A stretch of 28,903 bases of DNA from positions 1 to 28,903 of IMG/VR virus record IMGVR_UViG_3300038696_000236. One strand, written 5' to 3'. The notes under the pieces are model-generated. The model was not told the DNA's origin. It saw only the letters and a program-made list of their open reading frames with translations, and did not search any database. Below, piece after piece: positions 1,494-18,636 of this stretch. The position numbers and the translations under genes were made by a program. The stretch's first letter is position 1. Each line of letters opens with the position of its first letter. The DNA comes from a virus.

Positions 1494-1529
1494 AGTGAAC
1501 ATTAGTGAACATTAGTGAACATTAGTGAA
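1494..1529. repeat. Tandem 10-bp direct repeat, unit ATTAGTGAAC
   Basis: AGTGAA starts at 1494, 1504, 1514 and 1524, exactly 10 bp apart. Three full ATTAGTGAAC units are preceded by the variant TATAGTGAAC, whose first bases may belong to the IS630 target. A period of one helical turn puts every copy on the same face of the DNA, as expected for cooperative protein binding. Confidence 0.9.
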
Positions 1530-1568
1530 CCACTTTCCTAATCACTAGTCAACACGAATGAACACTAT

Positions 1569-1617
1569 TTCACTCACCATTTCACTCCTATCCACTCAGA
1601 ATTCACTCTCATTGTTT
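1569..1617. repeat. Inverted copies of the AGTGAA box (TTCACT)
   Basis: TTCACT occurs at 1569, 1581 and 1612, the reverse complement of the AGTGAA boxes on either side. The spacing here is less regular than in the two direct arrays. This stretch links the two arrays and lies upstream of the predicted promoter. Confidence 0.7.
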
Positions 1618-1631
1618 AGGCTCCCTTTAGG

Positions 1632-1659
1632 TTTGGATGGCTGTAAAACAGGCTATAAT
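1632..1659 (+). promoter_or_regulatory. Sigma-70-like promoter upstream of RNAP subunit 1
   Basis: A perfect -10 box TATAAT lies at 1654-1659. TTTGGA (1632-1637) sits 16 bp upstream as a weak -35 box. Transcription would start near 1666 and run into the RNA polymerase gene at 1850, giving a leader of about 185 bases. A host-type promoter here is unexpected for N4, where these genes are read by the virion RNA polymerase. Promoter strength and use are inferred. Confidence 0.5.
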
Positions 1660-1670
1660 CGACAGGTCGA
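1659..1670. promoter_or_regulatory. Palindrome at the predicted start site, candidate operator
   Basis: TCGACAGGTCGA is a 5-bp inverted repeat around an AG centre. It overlaps the last base of the -10 box and covers the predicted transcription start. A repressor bound here would block the promoter. No cognate repressor can be named. Confidence 0.45.
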
Positions 1671-1672
1671 AG

Positions 1673-1739
1673 AGTGAACCCAGAGTGAATTTGAGTGAGC
1701 TTAACTGTTCACTAGTGAATTTGAGTGAATTGGAGTGAA
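1673..1739. repeat. Second phased AGTGAA array with central palindrome
   Basis: AGTGAA/G boxes start at 1673, 1684, 1694, 1714, 1724 and 1734, again in 10-11 bp steps with one step missing. TTCACTAGTGAA (1708-1719) is a perfect 12-bp palindrome made of two boxes head to head. The array lies just downstream of the predicted promoter. It looks like a multi-site operator or a centromere-like site for a small ribbon-helix-helix protein. Confidence 0.85.
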
Positions 1740-4195: not shown

Positions 4196-5470
4196 ATGGC
4201 TATGCAAGAATACACAGGAATCGAATACCTGAAAATCGACATCGCCTCCAACTTTGGTCTCAGCAAAGTGACTTGGGACAAGCGTCTGGAATGGTTTGCA
4301 GAGAACGAAGAAGCAATCCTTGAACTGCCTGAGCAGGTTCGCCTCAAGAACATAAAGCCAAAGTTCAAGAACCCTCAGCTGCTGATCGATGCCAAGGAGC
4401 CAGCCCTCTTCTATGCAGGTGTCAAAGCTTACGAGACAGCCATTGCAGGGAAAGCTGTTGCCTACCCTATCAGCTTGGATGCTACTGCAAGCGGTGCTCA
4501 GATCTTGGCTCTCCTGATCGGATGTGAAAGCTCAGCAAAGCTGTGCAACATCTTCGACACAGGTGATCGAGAAGACTTCTACAAGAACATCTATGAGTTC
4601 ATGATCCAGAAAGTCTCAGGCAACATCTCCAAGATCAAACACACTGATGTCAAATCTGCTGTCATGACATCTCTCTATGGATCCAAAGCCGAGCCCAAGA
4701 AGATCTTCGGTGAAGGTGAGATGCTGCAGACATTCTTCCAAACCATGGAAGAGCATGCTGGTGGTATCTGGGAACTCAACAAAGCTCTGCTTGGTCTGTG
4801 GAACCCAGAAGCTCTTACCTACGACTGGACTCTCCCTGACAACTTCCATGTCCACATCAAAGTTATGGCCAAACAGCAAGAGACTGTTCAGTTCAACAAC
4901 ACACCCCAGGAAGTAACCTACTTCGTCAATGCCCCGGTAGAGGAAGGACGTAGTCTCTCTGCCAACCTGACACACTCCGTCGACGGCATGCTTGTTCGTG
5001 AGATCCTTCGTCGCTGCAACTTTGAGCCATCCATGAAAGTGAGAGCCATGGAAGCTTGCGTCAACTATCAGAACTTCCCGGTATCATGTGGATCCACCAC
5101 AAACATCTCAATGGTTGGGAAGCTGTTGGCTCACTTTGACAAGACCGGTTTCTTGTCTGCACGTATCATCGATCACGTCACCACAGACAACATCGCAACG
5201 TTCTCGCCTGAGCAGAACGAAGCACTGTGGGAGCTGCTCGAGTCCATGCCTAAGAATCCCTTCAAAGTCCTATCAATTCACGACTGCTTCCGGTGCCTAC
5301 CTAACTATGGCAACGATCTGCGCCGTCAGTACAACCAGCTGCTACATGAGATCGGCCGCAGCACTCTCTTGGCTGATTTGGTCAGTCAAATATCTGGCTC
5401 AGAAATGTCTGTAACCAAGTATGCTGACATCTCAGCTGCTCCTCTCGAAGCCAACTACTCCCTCTCCTGA
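4196..5470 (+). CDS. N4-like RNA polymerase subunit 2 (catalytic half of a T7-like RNAP)
   Basis: The 424-residue protein carries all catalytic motifs of T7-type RNA polymerases. D95 in SLDATASGAQ matches T7 D537 (FDGSCSGIQ). K153 and Y161-G162 in DVKSAVMTSLYGSK match K631 and Y639-G640 of the O-helix. H260 in ANLTHSVDG matches H784. D363 in VLSIHDCF matches D812 of the second metal-binding site. It starts at the T7 position where subunit 1 stops, and its opening YLKIDIASNFGLSK corresponds to T7 YWLKIHGANCAGVDK. With subunit 1 it should form the N4-type RNAPII. The start at 4196 has AAAGGAAT just upstream. A longer in-frame start at 4088 would overlap the preceding gene and has no matching homology. 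Confidence 0.9.
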   Translation: MAMQEYTGIEYLKIDIASNFGLSKVTWDKRLEWFAENEEAILELPEQVRLKNIKPKFKNPQLLIDAKEPALFYAGVKAYETAIAGKAVAYPISLDATASGAQILALLIGCESSAKLCNIFDTGDREDFYKNIYEFMIQKVSGNISKIKHTDVKSAVMTSLYGSKAEPKKIFGEGEMLQTFFQTMEEHAGGIWELNKALLGLWNPEALTYDWTLPDNFHVHIKVMAKQQETVQFNNTPQEVTYFVNAPVEEGRSLSANLTHSVDGMLVREILRRCNFEPSMKVRAMEACVNYQNFPVSCGSTTNISMVGKLLAHFDKTGFLSARIIDHVTTDNIATFSPEQNEALWELLESMPKNPFKVLSIHDCFRCLPNYGNDLRRQYNQLLHEIGRSTLLADLVSQISGSEMSVTKYADISAAPLEANYSLS

Positions 5471-14438: not shown

Positions 14439-14777
14439 ATGAGGTATAGTTTGACAGAATTACTCAAAAGTGAGCAAGAATATGCATTGGAATATAAACT
14501 ACTCTGTATAAAAGAAGGGCATATGCCCCTTCATCTAACAGAGCTTCCTACACGTAAGCTACGCAAAAGCGCCAAGCGCACGCAGCTACGAGAGTTTCTC
14601 GAAACTCGTGTGGGCAACATCAAAACAGCAGAGCTTGCCAAAATCCTCAACCTCTCTGACGATTCAATACGTCGATACTGTCACACCTTCGTCAATGAAG
14701 GTTGGCTCCAAGCTGACAAGACACGAGCTGGCTACACTTACAAATCACACTTCCAAGAACAGTATGCTCCTGATTGA
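14439..14777 (+). CDS. Winged helix-turn-helix DNA-binding protein
   Basis: A 112-residue protein with a helix-turn-helix at about residues 61-85 (IKTAELAKILNLSDDSIRRY) followed by WLQADKTRAGYTYK, which reads as the wing. The first ~50 residues are basic (RKLRKSAKRTQLREF). It could control the rep gene that follows or the prophage state. It is the only likely transcription repressor in the window, but has no CI-type oligomerisation domain. The start is uncertain. ATG 14439 follows the leader element without a clear Shine-Dalgarno. ATG 14523 has AAGG close by and would give 84 residues including the whole DNA-binding domain. Confidence 0.65.
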   Translation: MRYSLTELLKSEQEYALEYKLLCIKEGHMPLHLTELPTRKLRKSAKRTQLREFLETRVGNIKTAELAKILNLSDDSIRRYCHTFVNEGWLQADKTRAGYTYKSHFQEQYAPD

Positions 14778-14875: not shown

Positions 14876-15718
14876 ATGCGTGTAATAAACCTCATCCCCA
14901 GATTAGATCAGTCATTCAAGCCTACCGAGTTGATCCACATCACCGGTCATCAAAGCCTGTCTCTCAACTCCCGACGAGCCATAACCATACTTTGGCATAA
15001 GGCTCACTTGGACGGTATTGAAGAATGCAAAGACTACAAAATTGAGATCTCTGAGCTCTGCACAGAAGGTCACAAAGGTTACGAGATGGCCACTGAAGCC
15101 ATTGTAAACCTTATGCAAACTCTCATTACTATGTACCTCCCTGACGGCACTATAAGACGTGTGCAGTTCTTAGGGGGTAACGACATGGACAGCCCTGATC
15201 GACCCAGCGGCACCCTAACTTACAGCTTTGATAGACGGTTGATAGACGTCCTCAATGATTCAACTATTTGGGGTAAAATATCCCTACCTATCCTTATGGC
15301 TCTGTCGTCTAAATACTCTGTATCTCTCTATGAGAACCTGGCCCAGTGGGCAGGTCTTTCTCACAAGATCTCACAGATGCTCACTCTTAGAGAATTTCGA
15401 GGTCTTATGGGTGTCGAAGAAGGTAAGTATGAAGCTTTCGGGGAACTCAACAAGCATGTGATCAAGCCCTGTATTGCAGACATCAACGCACTGGCTCCCT
15501 TCAATATCTCAGCTTTACCGATCAAAACTGGCAGAAAAGTTACCAGTATTCGCATTGGATGGTGGTTGAAATCCCCAGAAGAAAGCGAAGCTGCGTTTGC
15601 TGAGATACGCAACACCAAGAGCGACCGCAAAGCACGTACCTCTGGACAAGCTTCTTTTGTATTTGACCCGTCTCCCTCCGTTGCGCGAATAACCAAGAAG
15701 AACCGTATAAAGACTTAA
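14876..15718 (+). CDS. Plasmid replication initiator, Rep_3 (RepB-like) family
   Basis: A 280-residue initiator. The start of the domain (HQSLSLNSRRAITILWHKAH, residues 21-40) matches the conserved opening of Rep_3 proteins, which place two winged helices on iterons. ISLPILMALSSKYSVSLYEN (about 137-156) and LTLREFRGLMGVEEGKYEAF (about 172-191) are further family landmarks, the latter being the second recognition wing. A basic, disordered tail follows. It should bind the iterons at 15852-15932, open the origin and recruit host DnaB with DnaA. No clear Shine-Dalgarno precedes the ATG (only TGATGG), so expression may be kept low. Rep lies inside an otherwise N4-like genome, which is the key oddity of the window. 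Confidence 0.88.
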   Translation: MRVINLIPRLDQSFKPTELIHITGHQSLSLNSRRAITILWHKAHLDGIEECKDYKIEISELCTEGHKGYEMATEAIVNLMQTLITMYLPDGTIRRVQFLGGNDMDSPDRPSGTLTYSFDRRLIDVLNDSTIWGKISLPILMALSSKYSVSLYENLAQWAGLSHKISQMLTLREFRGLMGVEEGKYEAFGELNKHVIKPCIADINALAPFNISALPIKTGRKVTSIRIGWWLKSPEESEAAFAEIRNTKSDRKARTSGQASFVFDPSPSVARITKKNRIKT

Positions 15719-15769
15719 CCCTTTATTTCGGTTTTTTAGGGTGGTCTCGCTGTCACGAGGCTACTTCAA

Positions 15770-15785
15770 CTGTGAGGTTTTCGGG
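15770..15785 (-). repeat. Inverted iteron copy
   Basis: CTGTGAGGTTTTCGGG is the reverse complement of the iteron consensus CCCGAAAACCTCAYAG. It lies just ahead of the DnaA boxes and faces the direct array. Confidence 0.85.
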
Positions 15786-15795
15786 TCATTCACCC

Positions 15796-15828
15796 TGTGG
15801 ATAAGTCTGTGAATAACTCTGTGGATAA
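15796..15828 (+). other. Three phased DnaA boxes
   Basis: TGTGGATAA at 15796 and 15820 are perfect DnaA boxes (reverse complement TTATCCACA), and TGTGAATAA at 15808 is a one-base variant. The starts are exactly 12 bp apart. Together with the iterons they mark a host DnaA-assisted plasmid origin. Confidence 0.88.
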
Positions 15829-15851
15829 GTAGCTGGTCTGGTACTAAAGCT

Positions 15852-15932
15852 CCCCGAAAACCTCACAGTTCGTGCCCGAAAACCTCATAGTAGTGCCCGA
15901 AAACCTCACATTTCCCCCCGAAAACCTCATAG
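15852..15932 (+). repeat. Four direct iterons (plasmid origin, oriV)
   Basis: Cores CCCGAAAACCTCA start at 15853, 15875, 15895 and 15917, spaced 22, 20 and 22 bp, about two helical turns. Each is followed by CAG, TAG, CA or TAG. They lie 135 bases after the rep stop, the usual arrangement for Rep_3 plasmids. An AT-richer stretch suited to melting (TTTATTTCGGTTTTTTA) lies at 15722-15738. Confidence 0.92.
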
Positions 15933-16014
15933 TTCGCGCCCTAAGCAACTGTAATGGTTATCCAATTCAGCCCTGAATCTTAGAATTAGAATATAAAAGA
16001 GAAGGAGATGAGCC

Positions 16015-17522: not shown

Positions 17523-17786
17523 CTATGTCCCAGGTTTGTCTGCACCACGGGCCTTGTTGAAATAGCTTTCCATCAACACTTCCAACATTTCCCCATTAGT
17601 TCTGCGTTCACGTTTACGCAGCTCCTGAAATCCTTCGTAGGTTTCAGCGTGCATGCGGATAGACATTTGAACCACGGGGTTAGGATCCCTGCTAGCCCAA
17701 CGACGGTTTGCAGTCTCCTTGGCTCGAGCTTTGATGTCCGTTGCTTCTTCGATGTCCAAAGGTGTGAAGTCTAATTTACGCGCCAT
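17523..17786 (-). CDS. Ribbon-helix-helix partition partner (ParG-like)
   Basis: An 87-residue protein. The C-terminal half (residues 38-77) is a ribbon-helix-helix: VVQMSIRMHAETYEGFQELR then KRERRTNGEMLEVLMESYF, with the beta strand reading the DNA. The N-terminal ~35 residues are basic and flexible (KARAKETANRRWASR), as in ParG, where the tail stimulates ParA ATPase. It overlaps the 3' end of parA by 11 bases and is co-transcribed with it. It should bind a centromere and connect the replicon to ParA. No repeat array is obvious next to the cassette; the AGTGAA arrays at 1494-1739 are a candidate target elsewhere. Confidence 0.78.
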   Translation of the reverse strand: MARKLDFTPLDIEEATDIKARAKETANRRWASRDPNPVVQMSIRMHAETYEGFQELRKRERRTNGEMLEVLMESYFNKARGADKPGT

Positions 17787-18483
17787 TGTGGTTCTCCTTC
17801 AGGGTCTTTGGTGTCTTGAGCTCTGCGGCCCATTCCATAATTCCAAGCACTTCTTCTACAAAAAGCTCAGCATTTGCGATCGCCTTGGCAACGCCACTCA
17901 CTTCGACAGTATCGAGTGAATGCAGCGTTCCTCCAAAGTGATGAAGCGATGCATAAGCCGTCCTGGCATGCAGCTCAGTCGTGAAGCTGCCAACCTTATC
18001 TCTCACTTGAGCATTCAGAGACTTCGCTAAACGCGATTTTACGGCCGCCTGAGTGCGTGCAAAGAGAATACGTACCGGTATGTCCCGGCGAAGCGCTCGT
18101 GCCTCCAGGGCCACCTGTGCGAGCGTCTCAATGGCACCTTCAGCATCAGGTTGATCATCCCCCATCGGGATAATGACCAAATCGCTCTCGCCCATGGCAT
18201 AAGCGTTGGTCCTGGTTGCTGCTCCTTCGAGATCGATGATCACATACTTGGCTACAGCCAAAGCATCAGAAATCTCATCATGGATGAAGCGTTCGCCTTT
18301 GGATGTGATGATCTTCAAGCGCTCAGGGAGTGGTCCCTTTTCAGCCCACGACATAAGTCTTTGAGCTGGGTCTGCATCGATCACAACAACATTACCGTTC
18401 CTGGCAAGTGTTGTGGCCATAATGATAGCAGACGTCGTCTTTCCTGCACCTCCTTTGGAGGAGGCGAATGTGATTACTGGCAT
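17776..18483 (-). CDS. parA: ParA-type partition ATPase
   Basis: A 235-residue ParA/MinD-family ATPase. The deviant Walker A SSKGGAGKTT carries K10 and K15. VVIDADPAQ (D36, D38) is the A' motif and YVIIDLEGA is the Walker B-like block. There is no N-terminal HTH, so this is a small type Ib ParA that pairs with a ribbon-helix-helix partner rather than a large ParB. It should segregate plasmid copies along the nucleoid. GAGG stands about ten bases before the ATG on the minus strand. It is the only operon on the minus strand, which marks it as an insertion between thyX and the replication module. Confidence 0.9.
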   Translation of the reverse strand: MPVITFASSKGGAGKTTSAIIMATTLARNGNVVVIDADPAQRLMSWAEKGPLPERLKIITSKGERFIHDEISDALAVAKYVIIDLEGAATRTNAYAMGESDLVIIPMGDDQPDAEGAIETLAQVALEARALRRDIPVRILFARTQAAVKSRLAKSLNAQVRDKVGSFTTELHARTAYASLHHFGGTLHSLDTVEVSGVAKAIANAELFVEEVLGIMEWAAELKTPKTLKENHNGA

Positions 18484-18636
18484 AGTAAATACCTCATGTG
18501 CTTCAGTTTTCCCACTTAACCCTATGCACGCAATAAAGACTTTGTCACGTTAAAAATCACACCACACCGCAACAAATCACACCGAACGGCGTTTTTCGGG
18601 ACTAAATATCACCAAATACAACTCAAGGAGTAAACC
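18484..18636. promoter_or_regulatory. Divergent intergenic region between parA and the replication module
   Basis: The 153 bases must hold the parA promoter (minus strand) and the leader of the plus-strand gene at 18637. On the plus strand ATCACACCACACCGCAACAA then ATCACACCGA (18556-18585) is a doubled C/A-rich element, and TATCACCAAATACAACTCAA (about 18607-18626) is a third partial copy next to AAGGAG. I found no convincing iteron-like parS repeats here. Confidence 0.55.

Follow-up and report, generated by a model that had tools for sequence, protein, structure and literature searches.

N4 and its relatives are the textbook phages whose virions deliver a polymerase of their own to initiate infection. 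How, then, could an N4-like phage that is carried as a plasmid begin its lytic programme? It cannot exit dormancy by means of the virion polymerase, because no virion enters. The leader of the RNA polymerase gene RNAP1 is the place to look for a solution, and one that is directly testable, since it would comprise the two polymerase genes, an operator, and its regulator. We analyzed a 28,903-nucleotide stretch of viral DNA (IMG/VR record IMGVR_UViG_3300038696_000236, positions 1 to 28,903; hereafter the window) in which about 15 copies of one short word surround the start of the early polymerase genes. A preliminary description of this DNA had proposed that a cooperative DNA-binding protein covers these copies and controls the RNA polymerase genes as a lysis-lysogeny switch or, alternatively, that they are the centromere of a ParA partition system.

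A plasmid module in an N4-like phage

The window derives from an N4-like (Schitoviridae) phage. It encodes RNAP1, RNAP2, a family A DNA polymerase, an exonuclease, a primase, an ATPase, and VWA-type proteins, and thereby holds the core genes that define the Schitoviridae (the RNAP1/RNAP2 subunits, DNA polymerase, primase, exonuclease, and associated core genes). The window stops short of the gene for the giant virion RNA polymerase, which is present (3669 aa, phrog_2206) on contig G006; this contig is 98-99% identical to the window across most of their overlap (the window's right part) and 86% identical in one stretch. Metagenome 3300031216 is the source of a near-identical contig. An Rfam search of the window returned no match. 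The polymerase genes and the plasmid module are as follows.

1850 to 2815, + strand: RNAP1, N4-type RNA polymerase subunit (phrog_2166, E 2.3e-92); first gene 3' of the arrays
4196 to 5470, + strand: RNAP2, second N4-type RNA polymerase subunit (phrog_2051, E 3e-136)
14876 to 15718, + strand: Rep3-type plasmid replication initiator (PF21205, PF01051)
15768 to 15934, no strand assigned: Rep3 iterons CCCGAAAACCTCACAGTT in 21-22-bp steps, one copy inverted, with two DnaA-type boxes; a separate plasmid origin
17523 to 17786, - strand: ribbon-helix-helix (RHH) partner of ParA (alignment with clade homologues; weak Arc-repressor match)
17776 to 18483, - strand: ParA (VirC1/ParA family matches)
18543 to 18587, - strand: probable RHH/ParA site 5' of parA, two GGTGTGAT words then ACGTGACA (GGTGTG element before parA clade-wide)

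The window has, and relatives conserve, the genes by which a phage-plasmid is recognised: an initiator of plasmid replication with its iterons, and a partition operon. The Rep3/ParA/RHH module is syntenic, in the same N4-type context, in viral contigs including G001/G002, G005, G017, G067, G070, and G071. Only G002 and G017 carry Rep3 and a close ParA among the 50 RNAP1-bearing records tested; G067 was added to the clade through a later ParA search. Gene content and synteny place the window in a clade of N4-like phages that carry a plasmid module, and the phage, known from metagenomic viral contigs only, seems to live as a plasmid. In our view, this is a more important result than the arrays themselves. 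In the open-access literature on N4-like lysogeny that we searched, we found no description of a plasmid form of N4-like phages: a previous study called lysogenic N4-like viruses from integrase, transposase, or DGR genes and from integrated proviruses, and the word "plasmid" does not occur in it (PMC10654107). Those viruses are N4-like with a non-lytic state, as the phage described here appears to be. Because the nearest plasmid-borne relatives of Rep and ParA come from Rhodobacterales and other Alphaproteobacteria, and because an IS630 copy in the window is most similar to Roseobacteraceae copies, the host is probably a member of a Roseobacteraceae-type group.

Two further features of these genomes deserve record. 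A C/A-rich element, ACACCACAC, recurs in gene spacers on the + strand of the window (4161, 12624, 14409, 14414, 18559, 23969, and 27984) and in relatives (L047, L021, and L044); it resembles the element 5' of parA, and its copies may act either as dispersed partition sites or as Rho-type terminators. In G001, the thymidylate-synthase (ThyX-like) gene (L021:7829-9796) encodes a 655-aa protein split by an apparent intein.

The AGTGAA arrays in the RNAP1 leader

The arrays occupy the RNAP1 leader, between the right end of the IS630 element and the start of RNAP1.

354 to 1492, + strand: IS630-family insertion sequence (transposase 417-1481; Pfam DDE_3 and HTH domains), with a TA duplication at 352-353 and 1493-1494
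1494 to 1562, + strand: array A, AGTGAA at 1494, 1504, 1514, and 1524 (10-bp steps), degenerate boxes at 1547 and 1557
1569 to 1607, - strand: array B, inverted boxes (TTCACT) at 1569, 1581, and 1602, degenerate box at 1591
1616 to 1631, + strand: TTAGG-N6-TTAGG pair
1654 to 1659, + strand: TATAAT, a perfect -10-like hexamer
1659 to 1670, no strand assigned: TCGACAGGTCGA, a 5-bp inverted repeat with a 2-nt loop
1673 to 1739, + strand: array C, AGTGAR at 1673, 1684, 1694 (AGTGAG), 1714, 1724, and 1734, with the palindrome TTCACTAGTGAA at 1708-1719
1757 to 1768, + strand: CCTAA pair (1757, 1764), a leader element with counterparts in G001, G017, and L003

Our recount bears out the ten direct AGTGAA/G boxes in 10-11-bp steps, the three inverted boxes, and the palindromes of the preliminary description, as well as their coordinates, and their number lies far above that in shuffled DNA: positions 1482-1850 (369 bp) hold 13 copies of AGTGAA/TTCACT, and 2000 dinucleotide shuffles averaged 0.41 copies and never gave more than 4. 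Successive direct boxes are 10, 10, and 10 bp apart in the first block and 11, 10, 20, 10, and 10 bp apart in the second, the 20-bp step containing the palindrome, within which a fourth inverted box lies at 1708. Boxes with one mismatch (1541-, 1547+, 1557+, and 1591-) add to the lattice. The forward boxes recur every 10.0 bp, a period that none of 3000 random placements reached; the periodicity of the inverted boxes alone is not significant (P about 0.25). Phasing of 10 bp on one face of the helix is an arrangement suited to cooperative binding. We conclude that the arrays are a real feature of the RNAP1 leader and specific to this lineage.

Two insertion sequences lie to the left of this leader, leaving 287-353 as the only possibly native DNA of the left flank; it contains one AGTGAA, at 338. 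A fragment at 157-286 matches the end of an IS3-family element from Rhodobacterales plasmids. We placed the ends of the IS630 element by comparison with Loktanella and Sulfitobacter copies, and its right end abuts the first box, the A of which belongs to the duplicated TA. This proximity, the IS3-like end nearby, and the presence of the same array in no other clade member could mean that the arrays are foreign DNA, carried in with insertion sequences or joined in assembly. The IS630 element has its TA duplication on both sides, however, which makes the array its target DNA, and array C is flanked by TTAGG and CCTAA elements common to relatives; we therefore regard a foreign source as very unlikely.

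Known motifs do not account for the boxes. A similarity search with the leader DNA against phage and plasmid collections gave no match, and motifs for Rep3 iterons, DnaA, LexA, CtrA, FNR, lambda arm sites, and P4 alpha were not found in the array region; for LexA, the alphaproteobacterial box was taken as GTTC-N7-GTTC, and the spacing present is N6. Phased repeats are typical of initiator sites, and some contigs with similar arrays have an adjacent replicase-type gene, such that the arrays could be origin iterons or some other DNA-processing site of the lytic programme. Yet Rep3 is already served by iterons and DnaA boxes of its own at 15768-15934, where the repeat beside rep is CCCGAAAACCTCACAGTT and not the array word; the array region contains no DnaA box; and the primase gene is core to N4-like phages, whereas the array occurs in no other RNAP1 leader. 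An origin at this site has little probability in our estimation.

The TTAGG pair, TATAAT, and TCGACAGGTCGA fall between the inverted block and the second direct block. The palindromic element reported beside the promoter was confirmed as TCGACAGGTCGA, at 1659-1670, while the sigma-70-like promoter itself stood in part: TATAAT is a perfect -10, but no -35 hexamer is recognisable at the 16-18-bp spacing of sigma-70 promoters, and a promoter scan returned 0 sites at threshold (0.8 in shuffles). A perfect -10 without a -35 is what would be expected if a phage or host protein on the phased boxes were an activator that recruits host RNA polymerase, and Firmicutes-type phage contigs do have 10-bp TTCACT arrays that separate a DUF1492/sigma-region-4-like regulator gene from the late operon. 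Array C, however, is on the downstream side of the -10, a position at which activator binding is rare, and no DUF1492-type gene was noticed in the window, albeit without a specific search. We consider an activator site unlikely, if the strongest of the alternatives to the operator discussed below.

RNAP1 leaders of relatives and arrays in other phages

Conserved arrays before RNAP1 in relatives, which the preliminary description had looked to as a check, were not found: a six-mer cluster search of 84 other RNAP1 leaders detected no array comparable to that of the window. The TTAGG pair is shared, and among the same 84 leaders it occurs only in those of G001/G002, G017, and fragment L003.

The early promoters of N4 are hairpins with 3-base loops that are recognised by the virion polymerase, and the loop of the template strand, A, G, G, reads TCC on the other strand (PMC4496689). 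We examined the early regions of four relatives for such hairpins: L037 (G001), L207 (G017), L235 (G067), and L003. Each has several hairpins with 3-nt loops and a loop of its own (G001, TCC; G017, TAC; G067, ACA; L003, TCC), one of these hairpins being in the RNAP1 leader in every case. The hairpins with TAC and ACA loops would function like the TCC form of N4, and, because each genome uses its own loop trinucleotide, these data suggest that the promoter loop changes in step with the virion polymerase. Three of the four hairpin-bearing leaders (G001, G017, and L003) also retain the TTAGG pair. In G001, the leader hairpin precedes a DprA-like gene, which in turn precedes RNAP1; this DprA/SLOG-like gene (L037:5227-5736), between leader and RNAP1, is absent from the window.

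By the same criteria (3-nt loop, stem of at least 5 pairs, at least 3 of them G-C), the window leader has no hairpin, a comparison that covers the RNAP1 leader, since native early-region DNA further left is mostly missing. The only 5-pair hairpin with a 3-nt loop in this leader, ACCTTAACAAGGT, is AT-rich and lies about 30 bp before the start codon. The window resembles N4 in that transcription of RNAP1/RNAP2 would be controlled at the same gene, with TCC loops as in N4 found in G001 and L003 (PMC4496689), but differs in that its leader has TATAAT and phased repeats in place of a hairpin.

Inspection of the relatives' leaders did reveal some clusters of other words. The G001 leader holds seven copies of AGTA/TACT in 75 bp, the highest AGTA count of that genome; four of the TACT copies are spaced by multiples of 11 bp. 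Counts of seven are also reached by other four-mers at a few further sites in G001. The G017 leader holds four copies of AGTTGA, the densest AGTTGA cluster of that genome. The G067 leader has no array-like cluster. The clusters of G001 and G017, which are modest, differ in word, and were found after inspection, are suggestive only. Repeats at L208:3700-4500 of G017 were considered as a control site and rejected, as they belong to a collagen-like tail gene.

Three AGTGAA boxes at 10-bp steps also occur in 65 unrelated viral contigs, none of which has homologues of RNAP1 or of the plasmid module. In the readable contigs, some arrays neighbour integrase genes, some have a DUF1492/sigma-region-4-like gene on one side and terminase genes on the other, and some are of low complexity. 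Because these contexts are mixed, the word is probably convergent among phages, and because different proteins use such a layout elsewhere, the layout alone does not identify the binder in the window. Arrays of TTCACT in 10-bp steps, located between a DUF1492/sigma-region-4-like gene and an HNH/terminase operon in L170:2259, L151:2313, and comparable contigs, are possibly the binding site of DUF1492/sigma-region-4-like late activators. The integrase genes adjacent to several contigs' 10-bp TTCACT arrays raise the prospect that the boxes of the window are arm-type sites of a tyrosine recombinase, that is, part of an attachment site. No Phage_integrase match, however, was found in the window or in six clade records (0/7, most of them fragments), and maintenance as a plasmid makes integration unnecessary; we consider an attachment site extremely improbable.

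Candidate binders and a proposed exit from the plasmid state

RHH proteins bind phased short repeats, and the window encodes both ParA and an RHH partner. As in RHH centromeres and operators, short phased boxes are thus present on an element that encodes these two proteins, and the arrays could be a centromere at which RHH dimers occupy the AGTGAA boxes and ParA segregates the plasmid. A centromere of this type would consist of repeats beside parA, common to systems with the same RHH recognition residues. The arrays are instead 16 kb from parA, and none of the 12 regions compared upstream of parA (11 N4-like and one from another Rep3/ParA element) contains AGTGAA, whereas GGTGTG(A) recurs there in 10 of the 11 N4-like cases and marks the parA promoter clade-wide. 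Plasmid relatives carry different repeats directly before parA. An alignment shows that the Q-x-S-x-R strand of the RHH protein is conserved in relatives without the array, which, with GGTGTG(A) and never AGTGAA upstream of parA, disfavours RHH at the array. The centromere offered by the preliminary description is accordingly highly doubtful. The predicted structure of the RHH protein gave no useful fold match.

A second candidate is encoded beside rep.

14439 to 14777, + strand: small winged-helix protein, putative binder of the arrays (weak Pfam HTH matches; structure model; homologue in G070)

Its model has a pLDDT of 75-81 over the core, and its fold neighbours are generic winged helices, with no match below E 0.001. 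Among these many neighbours are loose matches to TubR, AspA, and another pNOB8 centromere-binding protein, but unlike in the TubR and AspA systems, no tubZ- or aspA-type operon was seen. Homology is firm in G070 (E 2.8e-10), whose record lacks RNAP1, and weak in G017 and G071, both of which share an LRRVCR helix with G070; a winged-helix-like ORF in G001 shows no significant similarity to a profile derived from the window protein. No winged-helix-like gene was found near rep in G067 by a profile search, the profile already including the G001 and G017 sequences. Leader box clusters therefore co-occur with a winged-helix-like gene near rep in G001 and G017, and G067 has neither, a pattern that spans four leaders. 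The winged-helix protein appears to be the likeliest binder of the arrays.

In temperate phages, multi-box operators are sites bound cooperatively around a lytic promoter. The window is similar in that numerous phased boxes flank a probable promoter of the lytic programme, and differs in having 13 exact hexamer copies in direct and inverted blocks and a repressor that is a candidate only. We judge the chances about even that the arrays are the operator region of the RNAP1/RNAP2 operon in an N4-like phage with a Rep3/ParA module, and this is the best explanation that we can offer. A number and phasing of boxes beyond chance, the retention of TTAGG/CCTAA, and the absence of an N4-type hairpin argue for it; the lack of a -35, the negative promoter scan, and the absence of the array from 84 other RNAP1 leaders argue against it.

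Under this operator model, a dimeric regulator, most likely the small winged-helix protein, would occupy the AGTGAA boxes in a cooperative manner on a single face of the DNA helix, flanking a host-type promoter with a TATAAT -10, and would repress that promoter, possibly via looping between arrays A/B and C. In the plasmid state, no injected virion polymerase would be present; on release of the repressor, host RNA polymerase would transcribe RNAP1/RNAP2, and the lytic programme would start. The earlier proposal of a cooperative protein in control of the polymerase genes holds up as to setting, namely, an N4-type RNAP1 leader (phrog_2166) with 10-bp phasing in a phage with Rep3, ParA, and RHH, while its function as a switch, its promoter, and its binder are elements that we infer. 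Because such a leader sits in a phage with this module, regulation of RNAP1/RNAP2 is a natural decision point, for which "lysis-lysogeny switch" may prove a fitting label.

Relatives carry a quite different start signal, a hairpin, where the window has arrays. A broader scenario, which we advance tentatively and consider possible rather than probable, is that the clade is plasmid-borne and that, in the lineage of the window, a host-type promoter with a multi-box operator replaced the RNAP1 hairpin of the virion polymerase, so that lytic growth could start from the dormant plasmid with no need of an injected polymerase; operator word and winged-helix regulator may change in concert from one lineage to another. 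The leader of the window marks a group of N4-like phage-plasmids for which we found no description in the literature searched, and in our best reading, control of RNAP1/RNAP2 in such a phage would be control of its exit from plasmid dormancy.
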